Below, piece after piece: positions 4,639-34,519 of a DNA stretch of 34,519 nt (positions are counted from its first letter, which is position 1; the number at the start of each line of letters is the position of its first letter). The DNA is from a virus. The notes under the pieces are model-generated. The model ran no database searches. It had not been told where the DNA came from and was given only the letters and a program-made list of their open reading frames with translations. Position numbers and translations under genes: made by a program. The stretch covers positions 1-34,519 of the IMG/VR virus record IMGVR_UViG_3300045996_000858; one strand, written 5' to 3'.

Positions 4639-5319
4639 TTATGCGCCTTTGTTGTAATGCGCTAGAACCGTAGAAGCGTCGAGAACGACGTTATAGATTG
4701 CGATTTCGTCCAGTTTGCCGTTGAAGTAATAACCGCCCCCGAAGTCGCCGTACCTTCCGAAGTCCAAATCCCGCGCGCCCGTTACGCCGCTCAAGTCGTT
4801 TCCGTCCGCGTCCGCCGCAAGGCTCCCGTCCACGTAGAGTTTGACGTAACCCGTAGACGAAATCGTTGCGACGATATGGTGTTTAACGGAGACGGTAGGG
4901 GGAGTAATCGATACCGTAGCGCCAACCGAGTTGACGCGGACTTGAAACGTCCCCGACTCAATCAAGATGTTGAAGATTGAGTTAGTCGGTTGAGCGTTCA
5001 CGAATAACGCTGTGGCGTTGTCGTTGGATAGATACCAAAACTCAATACTCATCTCCGAATCGACTTGGAAAGACGAAACGCTAACGTACCCCGCCCCGCC
5101 CAAACTTAGGCAGGTATCCGCGTCTCCGTTAATCAGTCCCGTTGAGCCTTGAGTATACGTCCCCCCGTACGTTCCGTCGTACGTTGCGGTTTCGTCTTCC
5201 GCCGTCGTTCCGCTGCTCTCCCCGAGCCTCCAATAGCCGCGCAACCCCGACGTCGCCATTATCATTTGGCGGTACGTCTGACTTAGCGCGTCTCCGAAGA
5301 ATGTCATTGGTATTAGCAT
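4639..5319 (-). CDS. LamG/concanavalin-like carbohydrate-binding tail protein (226 aa)
   Basis: The start overlaps the stop of the giant fibre gene (TAATG). Residues 25-226 have the form of a LamG-type jelly roll: GLRGYWRLGESSGTTAEDET at the beginning, MSIEFWYLSND, HHIVATISSTGYVKLYVDGSL in the middle, and YFNGKLDEIAIYNVVLDASTVLAHYN at the end. This family binds sugars or proteins and is widespread in phage receptor-binding and virion surface proteins. With the fibre gene it probably forms the adsorption apparatus. An alternative ATG lies at the fifth codon. Confidence 0.85.
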   Translation of the reverse strand: MLIPMTFFGDALSQTYRQMIMATSGLRGYWRLGESSGTTAEDETATYDGTYGGTYTQGSTGLINGDADTCLSLGGAGYVSVSSFQVDSEMSIEFWYLSNDNATALFVNAQPTNSIFNILIESGTFQVRVNSVGATVSITPPTVSVKHHIVATISSTGYVKLYVDGSLAADADGNDLSGVTGARDLDFGRYGDFGGGYYFNGKLDEIAIYNVVLDASTVLAHYNKGA

Positions 5320-8300
5320 TAAGCAAACGCCTTCTGACAGACGCCGAATAGGGACGTACCGTCCGAGATAAAGGTGAGGATGTCTACCGCGTTCGCGGCA
5401 GTCGAGAGCGTCGGGTCCGTCCCGCCCGGGAACTTGTAGGCGGAGTTAAACGTCAACGTACGGCTCCCCGTCGCGTCCTGCTTAACGATGAGGATATACG
5501 TTGCTCCGTCAACGAGATTAGTAGGAGCGGCGAGCGTACGGTTGCCCCCGAGGGTAACGGTAGCCTTCGCGCCGCTATTCATGTTCCAGTTAATCGTGGA
5601 GCCGTCGGTAAGGGTTTGGGCCGTAGCGGCGTACTGCGGGGCCGTTATGACGCCGTCCTTATCGATTTTCGTTAGCGTCGTCCCGCCGCTCGTCTGCGCG
5701 TCGAGGAAGTCGCCCGTTTGTGACGCGCGCTGTTTGAGTAGCAGAGTCTTCGTACTATGCGGAACGAACGTTGTATCGGCCCCGAGCGTTACCACCAACG
5801 CCGCGTACTTCGTCGTATTCGTCGGGACGTAGTTGATACCGACGAAGCCGTTTTGGTAGATGCTCATCAACGTTTCGGTTGGCGTGAGCATGCCGTCTAC
5901 GCGCATGACGAAGTTCCAGTAGACTTTGTCGTCTGCCGTATTATCCGGCGTTACGTTGAGTAGCGCCTTGTTGTACTGGTTTCCGTGAGAACCGAACGCG
6001 GTGAAGTAGGCGCTAGAGTACGGAGACGGCTGAAACTGTAGCGTACCGCTGGGGTACCCCGCTCCCACGCCCGTGGCATCGGAGACGCGGGTAATAATCA
6101 TCTCGTTCTCGAAATTGTTCTGTCCCGCTTTGAAGTAAATAGCGTCGGCGTTGAAGTCGATACGTCCCCCGCTTCCCGCCCAACTGCCGGCCCAGTACCG
6201 CGTATAACCGCTAGACTCCGTCAAAACGATATCTAGGTAGTCGCCAGCGCCCGCGCCGCGACGGGGGATAATCTGATAGAACTTGTTACCCGTACTTAAG
6301 TCGGTAATGTACGACGTCGGTACGCCGGTGAATCCCGTCGTAAGCGTTTGCTTGTATTCGATATGTCCGCCGTCCGAGACGACGACGTTACCCGCCGTTA
6401 CGGTATCGGTTGTCTTATCGTAGACGAAACCAGCGTCGCCGTTGAATGCGCCCGCGTCGTTGAATTGGACTTGCGTAGTAGAGCCGCCCGGGGTACCCGA
6501 GAAACCGGAGTATCCACTAAAACCGCTTACTCCGCTAAATCCAGAGTAGCCGCTTGCGCCCGCAGCGCCCATTGGGCCGCCCGCTCCGCTGAACCCTGAA
6601 TATCCGCTTCGTCCAGATATTCCGCTGGTCCCGGAGAATCCAGAGTAGCCGCTAAAGCCGCTTACCCCACTAAATCCAGAGTAACCGCTTGCGCCTTGTA
6701 CCCCGTTACTTCCCGAGAAGCCGCTATATCCGCTTCGGCCCGAGAAACCGCTATAGCCACTAAAGCCGCTTACCCCGCTAAAACCAGAGTAGCCGCTTGC
6801 GCCTTGTACTCCGTTACTTCCGGAGAAGCCGCTATAGCCGCTTACTCCAGTCGCCCCAGAGAATCCGCTATAGCCGCTTCGGCCGCTGGTCCCGCTGAAA
6901 CCAGAGTACCCGCTTATTCCGCTGGCTCCGCTGAACCCAGAGTATCCGCTTATTCCAGACGCGCCAGAGAAGCCGCTATATCCGCTCCGTCCAGATACCC
7001 CGCTAGTCCCCGAGAACCCGCTGTACCCGCTTATTCCGCTGGTCCCCGAGAAGCCGCTATAGCCGCTAAAGCCGCTGGTACCATTCGCGCCCGAGAAACC
7101 AGAATAGCCGCTTGTCCCCGTTAGCAGCGAAGCCGCTACCCACGTCGCGTTACCGCTCGCGTCCGAGCGCAATACCTTGTCTACGCCTGGACTGCCGCCC
7201 GTAATCTTGAGCGTCGCGTTGTTTTCGAGCGAGAGGTTTCCGTAGACGGAGCCGCCCGCCTGGTCAATCGCGCCGATACCCTCTGCGGGGCCGTACGCGG
7301 GGCGGCAGTTGACGAGCATTAGGCGAGCAATCCAGAGGTTGACGCCGTCGATTCCCGACGCCGTAGCGCCCGTAATCGTAAACCTAATACCCTTACAATA
7401 GTCGTAGTTGGCGCTCCCCGAGGACTTCACCAAACCGTCTTGATAGAACGTTGAGCAAATGAACGGGAGCGAGTCGCTAACCCCCGTCCGTTGGATACAG
7501 TAATGCCAAGTCCCCGCGTTGTCTTTGTATTCGAGCGTCCAATCCGTGAGCGTCCCCGTACTGCCGCCGAGGCGATGCTGTAGCAGGACGAAGCGTAGGA
7601 CGTCCGTCATGTCGATGTTGCTGGACGACTCTACCGTTAGCGTATACGGGAGGTTGGCAATCGGGATGAGGATGTTGCTTGACAAGTCGTTGTCAAACAG
7701 ATTGTCCGCCGACAGCGTACCCGCAGACGTCGTAGACGTAATCGTGTATTGGCTCTTTCGGTTCGCTAGATAGAGTCTGTCCGCCATCCCCGTTACCGCG
7801 AATAGTCCGTTAATAGCAGAGCTGCGGGTATTCTGGTCCAGCAGTTTAATCGACGTCGGCGCGGTATCGATGGCGCTGCTCCAAGACGGAGTAGCCGTCC
7901 CGAGATTGACGGTACCCGAAAGGTTGCTTGTTCCCGTCGCCGCAAGCGCGGACGTCCCAACCGTTCCCGCCGCGATAGTCCCCGTCGTCAACGTATCCGT
8001 CGTCTTGCTGTAGGTAAGCCCCGCGTCTCCCGCTACGGCCCCGCTGTCGTTGAAGAATACTTGGGTATTGGATCCCGTTACGGTAAACCCAGCGCCAGAG
8101 TAGCCGCTAAAGCCGCTGGTACCAGCCGCGCCCGAAAATCCAGAATAGCCGCTCCGCCCCGATGTTCCAGAGAATCCGCTTGTTCCAGAAATTCCGCTGG
8201 TCCCCGAGAATCCGCTGTAGCCGCTTATCCCTTGGATACCCTGTACGCCTTGAGCGCCCGAGAATCCGCTGTAGCCGCTAAAGCCGCTGGTGCCTATTCC

Positions 8301-9833
8301 CGAATAACCGCTCCGTCCAGACGCGCCCGATACCCCGCTAGTACCCGAGAAACCGCTTACTCCGCTGGTCCCGCTGGTCCCCGAGAATCCAGAATAACCG
8401 CTCCGTCCAGACGCGCCAGAAATTCCGCTTGTTCCAGAGAAGCCGCTATATCCGCTAGTCCCCGTCAACAACGAAGGATCTACCCACGATGCGTTGCCGC
8501 TCGCGTCCGAGCGGAGGACTTTATCGACGCCAGGACTGCCGCCCGTAAGTTTGAAACCCGTAGCCGTTATGTTGCCAACGGAGAAGATGCCGCCGCTGTA
8601 AACGCGGAATTGCCAGAAGTCGTTAAGGACTCCGCCCGTCGTCGCGGAGAAGGTAACGGTAATGCCGTAGTTGAGCGTTTGGGCCGCGCCCGTAATAGAT
8701 ACGCCGCTCGCTTGAACGTTCGTACCGTTCGGCCCCAAACCCCAAGTAAAGGTGTTGGGACTTCCGGTCCCGTCAATCTTCACCCAAATGACGCGGCTCG
8801 CGTCCATCTCGTTGTACCCCGATACGTCAACCGTCATGTTGACGGTACCCGTCTTACTCGCGTAAACGGTATTCGGCGTAACGGTATCCGCCGTCGCGCT
8901 GCTGCCGCTGGTCCCGTCGCTCGCGGTATAGAACGGCGTCGGCGAAACGTAGACGTTACCGTAGAGGTCCAGCCGCTTCGTTATCATCCGTCCGGCGACG
9001 CCGTTAAACTTCAGCGGCTCCCATGCGCCGCCCGCTCCCTGATAATCGGTGTAAAACCAATTGAAGATGTCTTGAGCGGTATCGGGGTTGTCGCTCATGA
9101 AAAACGTATAGCGCGTGTTGTCGCTCGCGTACTCCGTAACGCGAATCTGCGCGGTGTCGCTCGTTTTCACGAAGCGAATAAGCGAAGTGCTACCAACGCC
9201 CGGATTGCTCAAGTCGAGTTGCGTACCCGTTATCGCTCCGCCCGCGACGATTGTACTAACCGTAGTAAGGGAACCCGTAGCCAACGTATCCGTTGTCTTG
9301 TTGTAGGTTAGCCCCGCGTCTCCCGCTACCGCGCCGCCGTCGTTGAAGAAGACTTGGGTATTGCTTCCCGTTACCGTAAACCCCGCGCCCGAGAAACCAG
9401 AATAGCCGCTCCGCCCCGACGCGCCGCTCGCTCCGCTGTATCCGCTAAAACCGCTTACCCCACTAAAACCGCTGTATCCGCTGCGCCCGCTCGCGCCCGA
9501 GAAACCGCTGTAACCGCTGGTCCCCTGTACTGCGGAAGCCGCTACCCACGTAGCATTTCCGCTCGCGTCGGAGCGGAGGATCTTATCGACGCCAGGACTG
9601 CCGCCCGTAAACTGTAGGGAGTCCGCTACGAGGCCGCCCGTAAAGGTGGAAGCGTTGATTCCGCCGCTGCCGTCCCGCTTGACGAGGGAGTCCGCGACGG
9701 GGTTAACCGCCGCGCTCAAGATGAAGTCGGCGATGAAGCGGAAGTTGTCGTTGAGTCCGACGCCGCCCGGTTGGGACGGTTCGGGACTGAGGACGTAGAT
9801 ACCGCTGTTGTTGTAGTTGATTAACTCTGACAT
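5319..9833 (-). CDS. Collagen-like tail fibre (1504 aa)
   Basis: A giant fibre with three collagen-like stretches of Gly-x-Ser-like triplets (GYSGFSG, GTSGISG, GRSGYSG) at about residues 103-153, 454-580 and 903-1118. Between them are repeated modules: GGSPGVDKVLRSDASGNATW (three copies, near 75, 430 and 880) and a TQVFFND...GDAGLTYxKTTDTL module (three copies, each just after a collagen stretch). The C-terminus (AQTLTDGSTINWNMNSGAKATVTLGGNRTL onward, to about 1504) is a beta fold often seen at phage fibre tips. Triplets trimerise to make the shaft; the interspersed domains probably bind receptor. The N-terminus (MSELINYNNSGIYVLSPE) would attach to the tail. Confidence 0.9.
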   Translation of the reverse strand: MSELINYNNSGIYVLSPEPSQPGGVGLNDNFRFIADFILSAAVNPVADSLVKRDGSGGINASTFTGGLVADSLQFTGGSPGVDKILRSDASGNATWVAASAVQGTSGYSGFSGASGRSGYSGFSGVSGFSGYSGASGASGRSGYSGFSGAGFTVTGSNTQVFFNDGGAVAGDAGLTYNKTTDTLATGSLTTVSTIVAGGAITGTQLDLSNPGVGSTSLIRFVKTSDTAQIRVTEYASDNTRYTFFMSDNPDTAQDIFNWFYTDYQGAGGAWEPLKFNGVAGRMITKRLDLYGNVYVSPTPFYTASDGTSGSSATADTVTPNTVYASKTGTVNMTVDVSGYNEMDASRVIWVKIDGTGSPNTFTWGLGPNGTNVQASGVSITGAAQTLNYGITVTFSATTGGVLNDFWQFRVYSGGIFSVGNITATGFKLTGGSPGVDKVLRSDASGNASWVDPSLLTGTSGYSGFSGTSGISGASGRSGYSGFSGTSGTSGVSGFSGTSGVSGASGRSGYSGIGTSGFSGYSGFSGAQGVQGIQGISGYSGFSGTSGISGTSGFSGTSGRSGYSGFSGAAGTSGFSGYSGAGFTVTGSNTQVFFNDSGAVAGDAGLTYSKTTDTLTTGTIAAGTVGTSALAATGTSNLSGTVNLGTATPSWSSAIDTAPTSIKLLDQNTRSSAINGLFAVTGMADRLYLANRKSQYTITSTTSAGTLSADNLFDNDLSSNILIPIANLPYTLTVESSSNIDMTDVLRFVLLQHRLGGSTGTLTDWTLEYKDNAGTWHYCIQRTGVSDSLPFICSTFYQDGLVKSSGSANYDYCKGIRFTITGATASGIDGVNLWIARLMLVNCRPAYGPAEGIGAIDQAGGSVYGNLSLENNATLKITGGSPGVDKVLRSDASGNATWVAASLLTGTSGYSGFSGANGTSGFSGYSGFSGTSGISGYSGFSGTSGVSGRSGYSGFSGASGISGYSGFSGASGISGYSGFSGTSGRSGYSGFSGATGVSGYSGFSGSNGVQGASGYSGFSGVSGFSGYSGFSGRSGYSGFSGSNGVQGASGYSGFSGVSGFSGYSGFSGTSGISGRSGYSGFSGAGGPMGAAGASGYSGFSGVSGFSGYSGFSGTPGGSTTQVQFNDAGAFNGDAGFVYDKTTDTVTAGNVVVSDGGHIEYKQTLTTGFTGVPTSYITDLSTGNKFYQIIPRRGAGAGDYLDIVLTESSGYTRYWAGSWAGSGGRIDFNADAIYFKAGQNNFENEMIITRVSDATGVGAGYPSGTLQFQPSPYSSAYFTAFGSHGNQYNKALLNVTPDNTADDKVYWNFVMRVDGMLTPTETLMSIYQNGFVGINYVPTNTTKYAALVVTLGADTTFVPHSTKTLLLKQRASQTGDFLDAQTSGGTTLTKIDKDGVITAPQYAATAQTLTDGSTINWNMNSGAKATVTLGGNRTLAAPTNLVDGATYILIVKQDATGSRTLTFNSAYKFPGGTDPTLSTAANAVDILTFISDGTSLFGVCQKAFA
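6480..7125 (-). repeat. Collagen-like coding repeat, third and longest block
   Basis: About 645 bp of degenerate 9- to 18-bp units coding for GxSG triplets such as SGYSGFSG. Units are nearly identical at protein level but vary at synonymous positions, so the block is old and not a recent slippage product. One 54-residue portion containing GSNGVQGASGYSG occurs twice in a row. Confidence 0.85.
8090..8470 (-). repeat. Collagen-like coding repeat, second block
   Basis: About 380 bp of GxSG-coding units within the fibre gene, with a short GAQGVQGIQGI insertion near the middle that resembles classic collagen-like triplets. Confidence 0.85.
9375..9525 (-). repeat. Collagen-like coding repeat, first block
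   Basis: About 150 bp of GxSG-coding units near the fibre N-terminus, followed by the first TQVFFND module. Confidence 0.8.
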
Positions 9834-14683: not shown

Positions 14684-15166
14684 ATGCGGTACGATGAGTT
14701 ATTGGCTCTGACGCGCGATTACGACGATAAGGGCGGCTCTGTAGGAGTTAACGAGTTATGCGAGTTCATACGACTGATTTGCCGTCTCGGTTTCCGGACC
14801 GGCGGACGACAACGCATGCTCGCATGGTTGGAGTTGACGTCGATGGCGGCGCGGGGCCTCGTATCACGCCTCTCCGACGAACAAATCAAATCGATTGAGC
14901 GAGAGGGTATCGTTGCCGAAGACGCCGACGACAACATCAAAGTAACTCTGTCGTTGAGCGCAGACGAAATCGAATGGTTGGACGTCCTCGCTACTCACGT
15001 CCAAATGAACCCCGACAACTACGACTTGAACAGTAAGTACGAAGTCGGGACCTACGGCGAAGCGTACCAAAAGGCTTATCGCGTACTCATGGCGATATCC
15101 AAGACGGCGAGCGCGGCCGAACGCAAACAGCAACAGAAGGACTACGACGCCTTATCGCCCTTCTGA
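14684..15166 (+). CDS. Hypothetical accessory protein (160 aa)
   Basis: The ATG at 14684 follows GAAAGGA by about ten bases; the earlier TTG start at 14606 lies before the terminator and is unlikely. It is mainly helical with RYDELLALTRDYDDKGG at the start, ARGLVSRLSDEQIKSIEREGI in the middle, a short strand (NIKVTLSLSADEIEWL), and a Gln/Lys-rich end. Flanked by terminators. No family is recognised. Confidence 0.7.
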   Translation: MRYDELLALTRDYDDKGGSVGVNELCEFIRLICRLGFRTGGRQRMLAWLELTSMAARGLVSRLSDEQIKSIEREGIVAEDADDNIKVTLSLSADEIEWLDVLATHVQMNPDNYDLNSKYEVGTYGEAYQKAYRVLMAISKTASAAERKQQQKDYDALSPF

Positions 15167-15261: not shown

Positions 15262-15825
15262 TTACTTGAGGACGTACCGCGACAAGGCTTTCTCTTTGCC
15301 GTTGGTCCCGATTTTATGGCTCGCGTTCTCCGCGTTCCAACGCTCAATCAACTTCGGGACATGAGCGGCCCATTTGTCCCCGAGTTGCCCCAAGATGTCC
15401 TTACGCGAGAACTCGTTGTGCTTCCCAACCTTCGTCGCGTACGAGCCTAACGCCTTCGCCGCGTCGGCAATCTCGTCTTCGCTCGGACGGAAGCGCTTAC
15501 CGCCGCCGCTGCCGCCGCGAGACGGGCGCTCTTTCTGCCCCGTCAACTTCGCAATCTCCGCGTCAATCTCTTTAATGCGGATGTTGGCTTCGTTGATGCT
15601 CTGCGCCAACTCGGAACGCTCTTTCTTCATCGGCTCCAGGACGTTCGCCAAAGCCTTCTCCCGCTTCTCGCGTTGGGCGGTTTGGAACTTCTCGAATGCT
15701 TCGTTTTCTTCCCGCTCCAGTTGCTTGAGAATGTCGGCGGCGGAGTCGCCGTTGCTCCCTTTCAGAGCCGCCAAGCCTTCGCGCTGCCGCTTCGTCTTCT
15801 CGGGGGTAGCCGTTCCCTTTGCCAT
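15262..15825 (-). CDS. Coiled-coil protein with C-terminal DNA-binding-like domain (187 aa)
   Basis: Three parts are visible: a long charged coiled coil (about residues 28-100, LKQLEREENEAFEKFQTAQREKREKA and ERSELAQSINEANIRIKEIDAEIAKL), a Gly/Ser/Arg linker (PSRGGSGGGKRFRP, about 103-117), and a compact helical C-terminal domain (SEDEIADAAKALGSYATKVGKHNEFSRKDILGQLGDKW). This order of oligomerisation coil, flexible basic linker and C-terminal domain is that of H-NS-type nucleoid proteins and silencers, but I see no H-NS sequence motif. It is monocistronic and convergent to the accessory genes. It could silence or regulate phage genes in the lysogen; that is inference. Confidence 0.75.
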   Translation of the reverse strand: MAKGTATPEKTKRQREGLAALKGSNGDSAADILKQLEREENEAFEKFQTAQREKREKALANVLEPMKKERSELAQSINEANIRIKEIDAEIAKLTGQKERPSRGGSGGGKRFRPSEDEIADAAKALGSYATKVGKHNEFSRKDILGQLGDKWAAHVPKLIERWNAENASHKIGTNGKEKALSRYVLK

Positions 15826-15964
15826 AGCCGTATCCTTTCGCCGCTCTCGCGGCAGTTGAGTTGTGAAGCGGGATACTCGGGAACGGCGTAAGAGTCAAAT
15901 AAAAGATAAGGGGATACCCCTTTTCCCCTTGCCAAGCGTTGCCGTTTATGTCCTGAATAGCGGC

Positions 15965-16153
15965 ATGATGAAACCTACTGAACAACCGAAGGCCGCTCAT
16001 ACCGTCCGCGTCGGCGACGCCGTCCGCCTCGCGGGGTTCGCAGCACATAAAACCGTCATCTCCGCGACGCGAGAAGCGGACGGCTATATCCGCCTTACGT
16101 TCGCGGACTACGCCGCCCGCGTCCGCCCCTACCGCCAAGTCAAAACCATCTGA
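15965..16153 (+). CDS. Small beta-rich protein (62 aa), SH3/KOW-like
   Basis: I start it at the ATG at 15965 (another ATG follows at 15968); a start at 15863 would add a segment without protein-like composition. The sequence HTVRVGDAVRLAGFAAHKTVISATREADGYIRLTFADYAARVRPYRQV has the VGDxVRL...GxVxxxR strand pattern of small SH3-like barrels. It is followed by a strong terminator. Function unknown; small barrels of this type often bind nucleic acid. Confidence 0.6.
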   Translation: MMKPTEQPKAAHTVRVGDAVRLAGFAAHKTVISATREADGYIRLTFADYAARVRPYRQVKTI

Positions 16154-16174
16154 CGCCGTAACCCCTACTAAACG

Positions 16175-16213
16175 AGAGAAGGCCCAGGAATCGCTCCTGG
16201 GCCTTCTCTTTTG
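16175..16213 (+). terminator. Rightward intrinsic terminator
   Basis: Perfect 15-bp stem (16175-16189 with 16195-16209), five-base loop, then UUUUG. It also lies just beyond the convergent end of the integrase gene. Confidence 0.85.
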
Positions 16214-16241
16214 CCTTATGCGGCGTCGGAGCCGCCTACCC

Positions 16242-18035
16242 CTACCGCCGCCTACCCTTCGCCCTCTTCGCGGCTTGGGCGGCTTCGTACGCCTTGCCGC
16301 TCGCGGCGTACCATCGCTCCAACTCCGCCGCCGTCCGCTTCGGCTTCGTCAACGGGGCCGCTTGGCCGAAGTTTTCGCCGAAGATGTTATACGAGAGCGT
16401 CGCCAACGGACTACCGCTCGCGGCGTTCCGACGGGCGCGGTAGGCGAAGCGGACTTGGAACGCTTCGCCGATGAACAACTCAACCGTCGCCGTCCCTTCA
16501 ATCGTAAACGGCAACGTAGACGTCCGCTCCGCCGTCATGACGATACGCTTGACGATGAGACGAAGGGTAGCCGCCATCTCCTCCCGCGCGGCGTACGACG
16601 GCTCATCGGATAGAACTTGCTCTAGGCGCTCAATTAACTTCGTCGCGCGCCCCTTGTCGGAGACGAGCGCCCGCGCCTTCGATGCGTTGTACTCCCGCTC
16701 CAACCGCTCCCGCTTGGACTCAAGAGCGGCGGCGGCTTTCGCCAACGTCTTAACGTTGCCGCCTTCCGCCATCGCCTCCCCAATCTCCGCGAGCCGCGCG
16801 TCTACTTCCGCAATCTGCGCCCGCAGATTATCGCCGTCCGCTTTGACTTCGCGCGGGGCGAAATGCTCCGCATGGTACTTCAATAGCGCGTTGAACATGA
16901 CATGTTCGAAGACGGCAAGGTTGACGTACGTTCGCGGCTTCGTCCCCAATGTCTCCCCGCTGTTGTTAACGAGCCGCCTATCTCCGCTCGCGTTCTGGTG
17001 GATAGTCCAACTCTCCCCTTCGTCGTCAACGAGCAAGCCGTTGAAGAGGTTTACCCAAGCGGCCTTCGGGCCCCGCGTACCCTTGAACGTCTCGGGAGAG
17101 TCGTTGCGGCGTTGCGCGAGTACCGCGTTGGCTTCGTCCCATTGCTTGACGGAGACGACAGGGGGGTAATACCCCTCAACCGTACCGACGACGACGCCGC
17201 CCTTACGCTGGACCAACTCCCCCAGTACCGCGCGCCCGCTGACGATTTGGTGGACGTAGGTTTTGCTCCATCGTCCGCTCGTACCGAACGAAGCAACCTT
17301 CTCGCGGTTGAGCAAGCGAGCGACAGCGCCGATACCGTAGCCGTCCGTAATCAACGCGAAGATGCGGCGGACGATTGCCGCGTACTCCGCGACGACGACA
17401 ACCTTACCGTCGCGGACTTTGAGCCAACGCGGCGTCCAGTTGCGGACGACTTCGCCGCGAGCCGCGCGCTCCCGCGTCTGCTCCCAACTCGCGCGCATCC
17501 GCATACCCTTAATGCGGCTCTCGTCATTCGCTCGCGCCATGACGGAGATACTGATAATCAATTCGCTGAACTCCAACGGCTTGTCGCCGTCGTTGCTGTA
17601 CTCGCGCCCGTCGGACAAGGTAACGATGCGAACGCCGTTGTTGATGATCCCGAGAAACTGTTGGAGCGCCAACGTAATCTCCGAACGCGAGAGGCGGTCC
17701 AGAGATTCGACAATCAAGACGCTCCCTTTGGGTATCGCGCCCGACTCAATCAATCGGAGCAACCGTCCCAACGCGCCGCTCGCGGCGTTCTTGCCGCGAT
17801 ACGCGCTAACCCCTTCGTCGCGGTAACTGTCGTCAATCTTCAAGCCGCGCGCTTTCGCCCATTCGGCGGACGCCGCCAACTGTCGGCGCGTTGAGTCGCC
17901 TTCGCTCTGTTGCGGCGTAGAGAAGCGGAGATACGAGATACAGAGGGGGGCGGCTCCGCCGTCCTGGCCCCGCTGCCGTTTGCCGCCGCCGTTCGCTCCG
18001 CGAAGGGATTTGAGTTGGACATTCATGCGTAACAT
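16242..18035 (-). CDS. int: Large serine recombinase (phage integrase), 597 aa
   Basis: The N-terminal resolvase domain begins ISYLRFSTPQQ (catalytic Ser near residue 39) and includes ESLDRLSRSE (about 110-119). The recombinase domain (about 215-330) follows, then a long coiled coil (AQIAEVDARLAEIGEAMA; ALESKRERLEREY; about 400-455) and a C-terminal basic tail ending KRAKGRRR. This enzyme joins attP to attB and needs a separate directionality factor for excision. It is odd in having no zinc-ribbon cysteines: the only Cys is near the N-terminus, and the usual ribbon position reads NLFNGLLVDDEGESWTI. Starts at 18035 or 18026 are both possible; a start at 18110 would run through the attP-like palindrome that lies just upstream. 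Confidence 0.93.
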   Translation of the reverse strand: MLRMNVQLKSLRGANGGGKRQRGQDGGAAPLCISYLRFSTPQQSEGDSTRRQLAASAEWAKARGLKIDDSYRDEGVSAYRGKNAASGALGRLLRLIESGAIPKGSVLIVESLDRLSRSEITLALQQFLGIINNGVRIVTLSDGREYSNDGDKPLEFSELIISISVMARANDESRIKGMRMRASWEQTRERAARGEVVRNWTPRWLKVRDGKVVVVAEYAAIVRRIFALITDGYGIGAVARLLNREKVASFGTSGRWSKTYVHQIVSGRAVLGELVQRKGGVVVGTVEGYYPPVVSVKQWDEANAVLAQRRNDSPETFKGTRGPKAAWVNLFNGLLVDDEGESWTIHQNASGDRRLVNNSGETLGTKPRTYVNLAVFEHVMFNALLKYHAEHFAPREVKADGDNLRAQIAEVDARLAEIGEAMAEGGNVKTLAKAAAALESKRERLEREYNASKARALVSDKGRATKLIERLEQVLSDEPSYAAREEMAATLRLIVKRIVMTAERTSTLPFTIEGTATVELFIGEAFQVRFAYRARRNAASGSPLATLSYNIFGENFGQAAPLTKPKRTAAELERWYAASGKAYEAAQAAKRAKGRRR

Positions 18036-18062
18036 CTTATTTGGAGCCAGTTTACCGGGCAA

Positions 18063-18107
18063 GTGTTGAATCGGAAAATATGGCTCAACGATTTGCCGAA
18101 TCAACAC
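18063..18107. other. attP: Predicted attP site (45-bp imperfect palindrome)
   Basis: Arms of 17 bases, 18063-18079 and 18091-18107, match at 15 of 17 positions when one is reverse-complemented. The 11-base centre is ATGGCTCAACG. It begins 28 bp upstream of the integrase ATG at 18035. Large serine integrases use attP sites of about 45-50 bp, with imperfect inverted arms around a short crossover, typically beside the int gene; all three criteria are met. The site lies inside the ligase-fragment reading frame. Confidence 0.75.
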
Positions 18108-18626
18108 CATCCGACGGAGTCCGCCAAACCCCTTAAAAACAAGCGTCTTTTCAGCGGTTGGCTCAAGTTAAAGACGCATCTCCCTACCCTGGATTGCGTC
18201 GTTACGGCGGCGGAGTTGGGACATGGGAAGCGGCGGGGCGTCCTCTCGGACTTGACGTTTGCCGTATGGGCGGACGACGGCTCAACGCTCCTCAACATCG
18301 GCAAAGCCTACAGCGGATTAACGGACGCGGAGATTGCGGACATGACGGGGCGGCTACGCTCCCTCGCGGTAGCCGACGACGGGCGGCGGTACGTCGTCCG
18401 CCCCGAGATAGTCGTTGAGATTGCCTTTGACCAAATCCAAAAGAGCGCCCGCCATGACAGCGGGTACGCGCTCCGCTTCCCGAGAATCAAAACCATCCGC
18501 AACGACAAGCCGCCGTCCGAGGCCGATACGCTGGCGCGCGTCCGAGAGATTTACGGGAGCGACGCCAATACCGCGCGCGAAGTCGAAACGGACGCGGAGC
18601 CGAACGAGCCTACCCTTTTCGATTGA
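18063..18626 (+). CDS. 5'-truncated ATP-dependent DNA ligase: motif V and C-terminal OB domain (187 codons)
   Basis: From codon 33 the protein is clearly the C-terminal part of a bacterial ATP-dependent DNA ligase: WLKLK (motif V), LPTLDCVVTAAELGHGKRRGVLSDLTFAV, GKAYSGLTDAEI, RPEIVVEIAFDQIQKSARHDSGYALRFPRI and DKPPSEADTL. The nucleotidyltransferase part with the catalytic Lys (KxDG) is absent. The frame is open from 18033, has only GTG (18063) or TTG starts, no ribosome-binding site at a proper distance, and its first Met is codon 94, inside the domain. It therefore looks like the 3' end of a gene meant to be joined to something upstream. Codons 1-32 cover the attP and a spacer. It is divergent to int, the geometry needed for fusion with a host gene on integration. 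Confidence 0.85.
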   Translation: MLNRKIWLNDLPNQHHPTESAKPLKNKRLFSGWLKLKTHLPTLDCVVTAAELGHGKRRGVLSDLTFAVWADDGSTLLNIGKAYSGLTDAEIADMTGRLRSLAVADDGRRYVVRPEIVVEIAFDQIQKSARHDSGYALRFPRIKTIRNDKPPSEADTLARVREIYGSDANTAREVETDAEPNEPTLFD

Positions 18627-18679: not shown

Positions 18680-18797
18680 CTGATTGTGCTTGGAACGGCA
18701 TACAGCCCCGTAAAGCCCCGTAGGACAATGACGGACCAGCATACGGGGGCGGCAACCGAAACAGGACCGCTTGCGGGTTCGAATCCCGCCAGTCAGA
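18680..18797 (+). other. tRNA-like element (118 nt), possibly degenerate
   Basis: A T-arm is exact: GCGGG-TTCGAAT-CCCGC (18773-18789), followed by CAGTCAG, which pairs fully with CTGATTG at 18680-18686 as a 7-bp acceptor stem (one G-U). Next come TG and a D-arm-like segment containing AACGGCATAC, then CCCCG (18706-18710) and CGGGG (18744-18748) as an anticodon stem, and GCGG/CCGC as a long variable arm. The anticodon loop would be 33 nt, far too long, and no CCA is encoded. It includes a tandem copy of AGCCCCGTA. A broken tRNA, a tRNA-derived attachment remnant and a tRNA mimic are all possible. Confidence 0.45.
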
Positions 18798-34335: not shown

Positions 34336-34519
34336 CGGGAGCGGAGTCCTCTTACGCGGATAGACAATCGCTTGCTTGCCGTCCCGCTTCACCTCAATAC
34401 CGAGTCCGCGCTGTACCTCTTCGATGTACGGTAGTAGCAACTCCGCAATCTCTTTCGCTTTCGGCTGTACGAGTCCGCCCTTAACGTACAGCGATTGGAA
34501 GTCGTCCAACTTCCCGTCC
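34333..34519 (-). CDS. Hypothetical 87-aa protein, C-terminal portion (gene crosses the record ends)
   Basis: The second part of the gene that starts at 204. In this copy the frame enters from the right edge and ends at the TAA at 34333-34335. The unique part codes for VKRDGKQAIVYPRKRTPLP; the rest duplicates the sequence at 1-127. The stop codon lies in the palindrome before HNH 2. Confidence 0.75.
   Translation of the reverse strand, partial: DGKLDDFQSLYVKGGLVQPKAKEIAELLLPYIEEVQRGLGIEVKRDGKQAIVYPRKRTPLP
34393..34519. repeat. Terminal direct repeat, right copy (circularity)
   Basis: Exact copy of 1-127. Remove one copy to obtain the 34,392-bp circle. Confidence 0.95.

Follow-up and report, generated by a model that had tools for sequence, protein, structure and literature searches.

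The attP site of an integrase usually carries a replacement for the gene that serves as its target, both for protein genes and for tRNAs (PMC10111431; similarly PMC12884075). The classical case of a gene-restoring attP is that of e14, which resides in the icd gene of E. coli (PMC6379469). There, attP and attB have a near-identical block of 163 bp in common; such blocks generally measure up to about 250 bp (PMC6379469, PMC10111431). The serine-integrase ICEs of streptococci target rumA, hsdM, mutT and traG, with a short common core located within the coding sequence, and their insertions disrupt the target or, in rumA, swap 3' ends, whereby the frame changes (PMC4701971). For actinobacteriophages, a tRNA-dependent lysogeny has been described, in which a complete tRNA gene of the phage complements in trans and a tyrosine recombinase is used (PMC10865867).

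Here, we analyze a viral sequence of 34,519 bases, to which we refer in its full length as the window, in which the 3' end of an ATP-dependent DNA ligase gene lies beside the gene for a large serine integrase. The best explanation for this arrangement is, very probably, that the phage integrates in a host ligase gene and restores its 3' end. The original prediction, that the phage integrates in a host ligase and supplies it with a new 3' end, is supported, because the homology boundary is sharp, an inverted repeat is present at the boundary codon beside the serine integrase, the 3' end is intact and in frame, it has been subject to purifying selection, and the host ligases occur in the same Phycisphaerae group as prophages related to the phage. 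Its label of an "integrate-and-repair" module goes too far, as the phage would restore a gene and carries no repair system.

The phage genome and its relatives

The window encodes terminase, portal, protease, capsid, tape measure, tail fibre and serine integrase proteins, and the same sequence is present at both of its ends:

1–127: direct repeat of 127 nt, repeat family D7, identical to 34393–34519

Because of these identical ends, the genome is read as that of a circular, complete phage of about 34.4 kb, and we take the window, from its sequence, to be a complete free phage genome rather than a prophage with host flanks. For the structural genes, matches are found among the prophages of five Phycisphaerae genomes, G029 (two copies), G065, G076, G012 and G002. 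Gene order is shared with these prophages and their terminases are around 33–42% identical to that of the window, with GenBank phages further off (about 32%). In G029, two divergent packaging and structural modules, both related to the window phage, are found within about 45 kb of a single contig (C18, about 234000–277000; L169–L171). The tail fibre of the window phage, of 1504 amino acids (5319–9833, minus strand), contains long collagen-like repeat arrays (repeat families D1–D6) and has collagen-like tail matches.

In IMG/VR, single-sequence scans that used the ligase end, integrase and terminase as queries did not retrieve a related phage, and neither did a profile scan of IMG/VR with the Phycisphaerae ligases or an exact search for attP. 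By these scans, the window is the single known example of a phage with such a ligase end.

The serine integrase

The integrase gene occupies the following position:

16242–18110, minus strand: large serine integrase, with Pfam domains Resolvase (PF00239) and Recombinase (PF07508); matches phrog_95 with an E-value of 1.6e-64

The protein has 622 amino acids if begun at 18110. The true start is likely the ATG at 18035 or that at 18026, because its relatives have only about 15–20 residues before the catalytic domain. The Resolvase catalytic domain is followed by the Recombinase domain, and Ser64 is invariant across seven relatives. Its nearest Phycisphaerae integrases are around 30–39% identical to it. 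Most large serine integrases carry a four-cysteine zinc ribbon, a common feature but not a universal one. This ribbon is absent from the integrase of the window, in which Cys57 is the sole cysteine of the reading frame; the related Phycisphaerae integrases have between three and ten. In a set of 42 serine integrases, ten were without the zinc-ribbon domain (PMC4701971).

Judging from the genome sequences, insertions made by related integrases show that these enter protein genes and that the 3' end of the target lands beside the 5' end of the integrase gene. In G126, the integrase gene (15766–17664, minus strand) is located inside a comM-like gene, of which the 5' part begins at 15058 and the 3' part at 18120. 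At this locus (L180, G126:C39, 15058–18821, comM parts included), there is little besides the serine integrase gene between the two parts. In G012 (L176, G012:C21), a related integrase adjoins the 3' part of comM, which runs from 97641 downwards and is divergent from it, and phage genes are found on the far side. The junction codon in comM is not the same in G012 and G126. Both genomes contain one copy of the comM 3' end, so these two insertions are apparently not restored. Their anatomy is as in the window, but the 3' end in the window belongs to a free phage genome. We also considered G065 as an insertion in a ligase gene and rejected it, as around 30 kb of host genes separate the ligase from the related prophage on the same contig.

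The ligase gene 3' end

A reading frame on the plus strand, 18033–18626, is open up to a TGA stop. Two features can be distinguished in its downstream part:

18159–18626, plus strand: 3' end of a ligase gene, last 155 codons and stop, with homology to ATP-dependent DNA ligases
18606–18623, plus strand: C-terminal tail EPTLFD, of a type shared with the host relatives

The ligase part contains motif V (WLKLK), the whole OB domain, RFPRIKTIRNDK near its end and the C-terminal tail. The Pfam model DNA_ligase_A_C (PF04679) is matched over positions 1–94 of its 94 (E-value 1.6e-14), and residues 42–175 of the frame align with the C-terminus of Thermococcus-type (archaeal-type) ligases from the PDB (E-value 3e-29). 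The best NCBIfam models for the frame are those of bacterial ATP-dependent ligases, covered only over about their last quarter. In the OB domain, motif V and the conserved RFPR...R.DK end are both present, with the invariant columns aligned with those of the hosts. The nucleotidyltransferase (adenylation) domain, with its adenylated lysine and motifs I–IV, is absent from the frame according to Pfam, PDB, NCBIfam and host alignments alike. The initial description of the frame, motif V and a full OB domain without a nucleotidyltransferase domain, is therefore correct, and as homology starts only at motif V, the phage piece alone is not a ligase.

The ligases of the relatives end in EPTLFD, QPTLFD, QMSLF, QLSLF or QLRLF, in each case after a variable linker. 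We take EPTLFD and the kindred host tails to resemble the beta-clamp-binding motif, and presumably they serve in binding the clamp. The tailed ligases form a clade (L092–L102 and L105, all from Phycisphaerae); the outgroup ligases are without such a tail.

The homology boundary and the candidate attP

Between the integrase gene and the ligase part, two further features are present:

18143–18177: candidate attP core, a perfect 8-bp inverted repeat, GCGTCTTT (18143–18150) and AAAGACGC (18170–18177)
18036–18158: phage arm of the candidate attP, also the region upstream of the integrase gene; in frame with the ligase end and without ligase similarity

Similarity to all twelve host genes compared begins abruptly at one codon, the TGG at 18159–18161, which encodes the motif V tryptophan. 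Against these twelve genes, nucleotide identity is 0.17, 0.19 and 0.25 in the three codons before the boundary, 1.0 at the TGG and mostly 0.6–0.9 from there on, with 0.36 at the fourth codon. The inverted repeat is centred on base 18160, in the middle of this same codon; inverted-repeat runs of at least 8 within 25 bp are found at 0.11% of the positions in the genome. The sequence of the left arm is from the phage, and that of the right arm is largely present in some of the host genes. Several of these have xAAGACGC at the corresponding position, and to that extent the symmetry derives from the host gene.

The onset of host homology coincides with the centre of an inverted repeat near the integrase gene, which makes this place the candidate location of the crossover. 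It is situated upstream of the integrase gene, at around 125 nt from the likely start (18035) and at 50 nt from the start of the longest possible frame (18110), and the region beside the integrase holds the ligase 3' part, in frame through its native stop. The frame is open up to the integrase start, as had been noted initially, but its codons 1–42 (18033–18158) are without ligase similarity. From its sequence, the stretch of the frame before the TGG, between the integrase start and the candidate crossover point, is DNA that is open by chance.

These observations bear on the possibility that the frame encodes a stand-alone phage protein with an OB domain and clamp-binding capacity, begun at an alternative start and occupying, for example, DNA nicks or the sliding clamp. 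The GTG at 18063 opens a frame of 187 amino acids, in which the OB domain and the clamp-like tail are intact. We regard such a protein as very improbable: counting from this GTG, the first in-frame ATG is codon 94, as originally claimed, leaving 93 codons without one, no ribosome-binding site was noted for the frame, and non-ligase DNA is found in frame upstream of the TGG. Such a protein would also leave unexplained why homology sets in at the midpoint of an inverted repeat next to the integrase gene. Once fused to a host 5' part, the piece of 155 codons would need no start codon of its own.

Further downstream, 54 nt past the ligase stop, a tRNA-like element is located:

18680–18797, plus strand: tRNA-like element of 117 nt, with acceptor CTGATTG/CAGTCAG and T-arm GCGGGTTCGAATCCCGC

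It scores 20.2 bits with the Rfam tRNA model, below the cut-off of 29, and ARAGORN makes no call. If the attachment site were elsewhere, for example in this element, the ligase piece would be cargo. This seems extremely improbable, as it would account neither for the inverted repeat nor for the sharpness of the ligase boundary, and attachment sites in tRNAs are typical of tyrosine integrases and not of serine integrases. This split in the use of tRNA sites has been reported for mycobacterial prophages (PMC10654092). A host tRNA-Arg gene is present 3' of the ligase gene in L012, and in L093 at a distance of about 600 nt. Co-acquisition of the tRNA-like element with the ligase end was rejected, as the sequences differ from host tRNA-Arg and the closest host is without the tRNA.

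Source of the ligase end

In a scan of 84,980 species genomes, the best match to the ligase end was found in a Phycisphaerae MAG (66%). Any such ligase is present in 42 of the 397 Phycisphaerae genomes, and a close one in a dozen; nine of the eleven best full-length matches, plus G051, belong to one order-level group, of which 26 genomes were searched. From the tryptophan codon to the stop, protein identity to six aligned hosts is 56–69%. A maximum likelihood tree places the phage copy within the Phycisphaerae ligase clade next to L092 as its sister (support 99/92); the phage branch is longer than that of the L092 host by a factor of about 1.5.

Matches to NAD-dependent ligase are found as well in all ten ligase-bearing hosts tested (broken over frames in G083, perhaps by an assembly error), from which the targeted ATP-dependent enzyme is likely an accessory repair ligase. 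G083 has the closest ATP-dependent ligase; its NAD-dependent one (G083:C3, 206462–207289) is split into four pieces, which fall in different frames and contain one TAG, indicating an assembly error or a pseudogene.

Fusion and selection

When joined in silico to positions 18159–18626 of the window, the 5' parts of all twelve host genes give in-frame, stop-free, full-length ligases. With the 5' part of L092, the product has 561 residues, compared to 560 for the native protein. Selection was assessed for 13 sequences with a GY94-type codon model, using a likelihood profile with restarts. Background omega is around 0.05 and the branch to the phage copy is fitted best with an omega of 0.01–0.02, rough values because dS is near saturation; an omega of 1 on this branch is worse by about 14 log-likelihood units. 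In this codon model, strong purifying selection is thus shown for the branch to the phage copy, part of which may predate capture from the host. As only one such phage is known, selection during the phage phase is inseparable from that in an unsampled host lineage before capture. A rare TTA codon was considered as a sign of constraint on the attachment site and is uninformative, TTA accounting for 9% of the leucine codons of the phage.

The selection result also weighs on the idea of a passive remnant, in which imprecise excision from a ligase gene carried off its 3' end, now functionless and not yet lost. The order of integrase, phage arm, host 3' end and phage is the expected leftover of such an event, and aberrant excision is also the preferred origin of the piece if the phage restores the gene. 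There is only one example in the IMG/VR scans, and the ligase piece and integrase are GC-rich (62%, versus 56% overall), which is compatible with recent acquisition. A remnant is nevertheless unlikely, given the strength of purifying selection on the branch and the fact that the 155 codons are still open to the native stop with the conserved tail retained. Past this stop, no trace of host DNA was found in a comparison with the flanks of the closest hosts, to which no likeness was seen, and the identity to the closest known host, 69%, does not point clearly to a recent copy.

Proposed integration and restoration of the host gene

If the phage does restore the ligase gene, its serine integrase would insert it into a chromosomal gene for an ATP-dependent ligase, in a host from the Phycisphaerae (Planctomycetota). 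Recombination would take place at the motif V tryptophan codon (TGG in attB), the presumed site of the exact crossover, and attP would be located upstream of the integrase start, with ligase coding sequence as its right half. The 5' part of the host ligase gene, from the adenylation domain to motif IV, would be joined in frame to the phage-borne end of 155 codons, and the lysogen would make a full-length ligase, a hybrid that is presumably expressed and active. The host's own 3' end would come to lie next to the integrase gene, at the opposite end of the prophage. The expected attL consists of host ...PGRRGxx codons joined to phage TGGCTCAAGTTAAAGACGCATC, and the expected attR of phage GCGTCTTTTCAGCGGT joined to host TGG-LKLKTH codons. 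Excision would return the native host gene. The piece was probably acquired when aberrant excision of an ancestor took the displaced host 3' end along, followed by retention under selection.

It is conceivable, and we propose it tentatively, that attP performs double duty, with one half made up of motif V codons and a diverged, functional gene end, clamp-binding-like tail included, kept under selection. Lysogens would then run a hybrid ligase of which the phage-borne DNA- and clamp-binding part evolves apart from that of the host. The near-invariance of WLKLKTHLP means that a single attP could suit many species of the order that possess the ligase.

A lysogen would contain the fused ligase at one end of the prophage and, at the opposite end, an orphan 3' part, the arrangement that the original prediction had suggested looking for. 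The 397 Phycisphaerae genomes, the 26 sampled members of the order and IMG/VR contain no example of it, nor an attL or attR, which is weak evidence given the small number of host genomes sampled. As no lysogen was found, integration is something we infer rather than see.

Comparison with known systems

The e14 and lambdoid prophages in icd are tyrosine-integrase systems. The phage of the window resembles them in its proposed insertion inside a protein gene, where an in-frame replacement 3' end keeps the gene functional, and in the displacement of the host 3' end to the other end of the prophage. It differs in having a serine integrase, in the length of the replacement (465 bp) and its divergence (about 56–69% protein identity to known hosts), and in that homology to the target starts at one codon. 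With the streptococcal ICEs it shares a large serine integrase and, as proposed here, a short common core and a target within coding sequence; unlike them, it carries a homologous, in-frame 3' end. As in the tRNA-dependent lysogeny of actinobacteriophages, the phage would supply what its integration removes from the host, but what would be supplied here, in cis and at the junction, is the part that a protein gene has lost.

In an actinobacterial prophage (L011/G399, L186–L187, IMGVR_UViG_2657245700_000001), a serine integrase gene (38393–39985, minus strand) is located at one end. At the other end, a LigB-like ATP-dependent ligase gene is cut at GKT, within the part encoding the OB domain. The target is like that proposed here, but the codon differs (GKT), the two systems are unrelated by our searches, the ligase is truncated and the contig is without a replacement. 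By its sequence, this apparently independent insertion shows that ATP-dependent ligases can be targets of serine integrases.

Restoration of a gene by attP is an established principle; what is unusual here, judging from the sequence comparisons, is the recombinase, the length of the replacement, its divergence and the ligase target. This novelty is judged on open-licence PMC texts, and a restoring serine-integrase case may exist outside these. If confirmed, the locus would provide a new set of integrase, attP and attB for Planctomycetota, for which few genetic tools are available, with attB in a conserved codon, and it would show that the C-terminal part of a host DNA-repair enzyme can come from a phage. 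The insertion of serine-integrase elements in protein genes is usually portrayed as disruptive; the window suggests that a long replacement, maintained by selection, is possible too.
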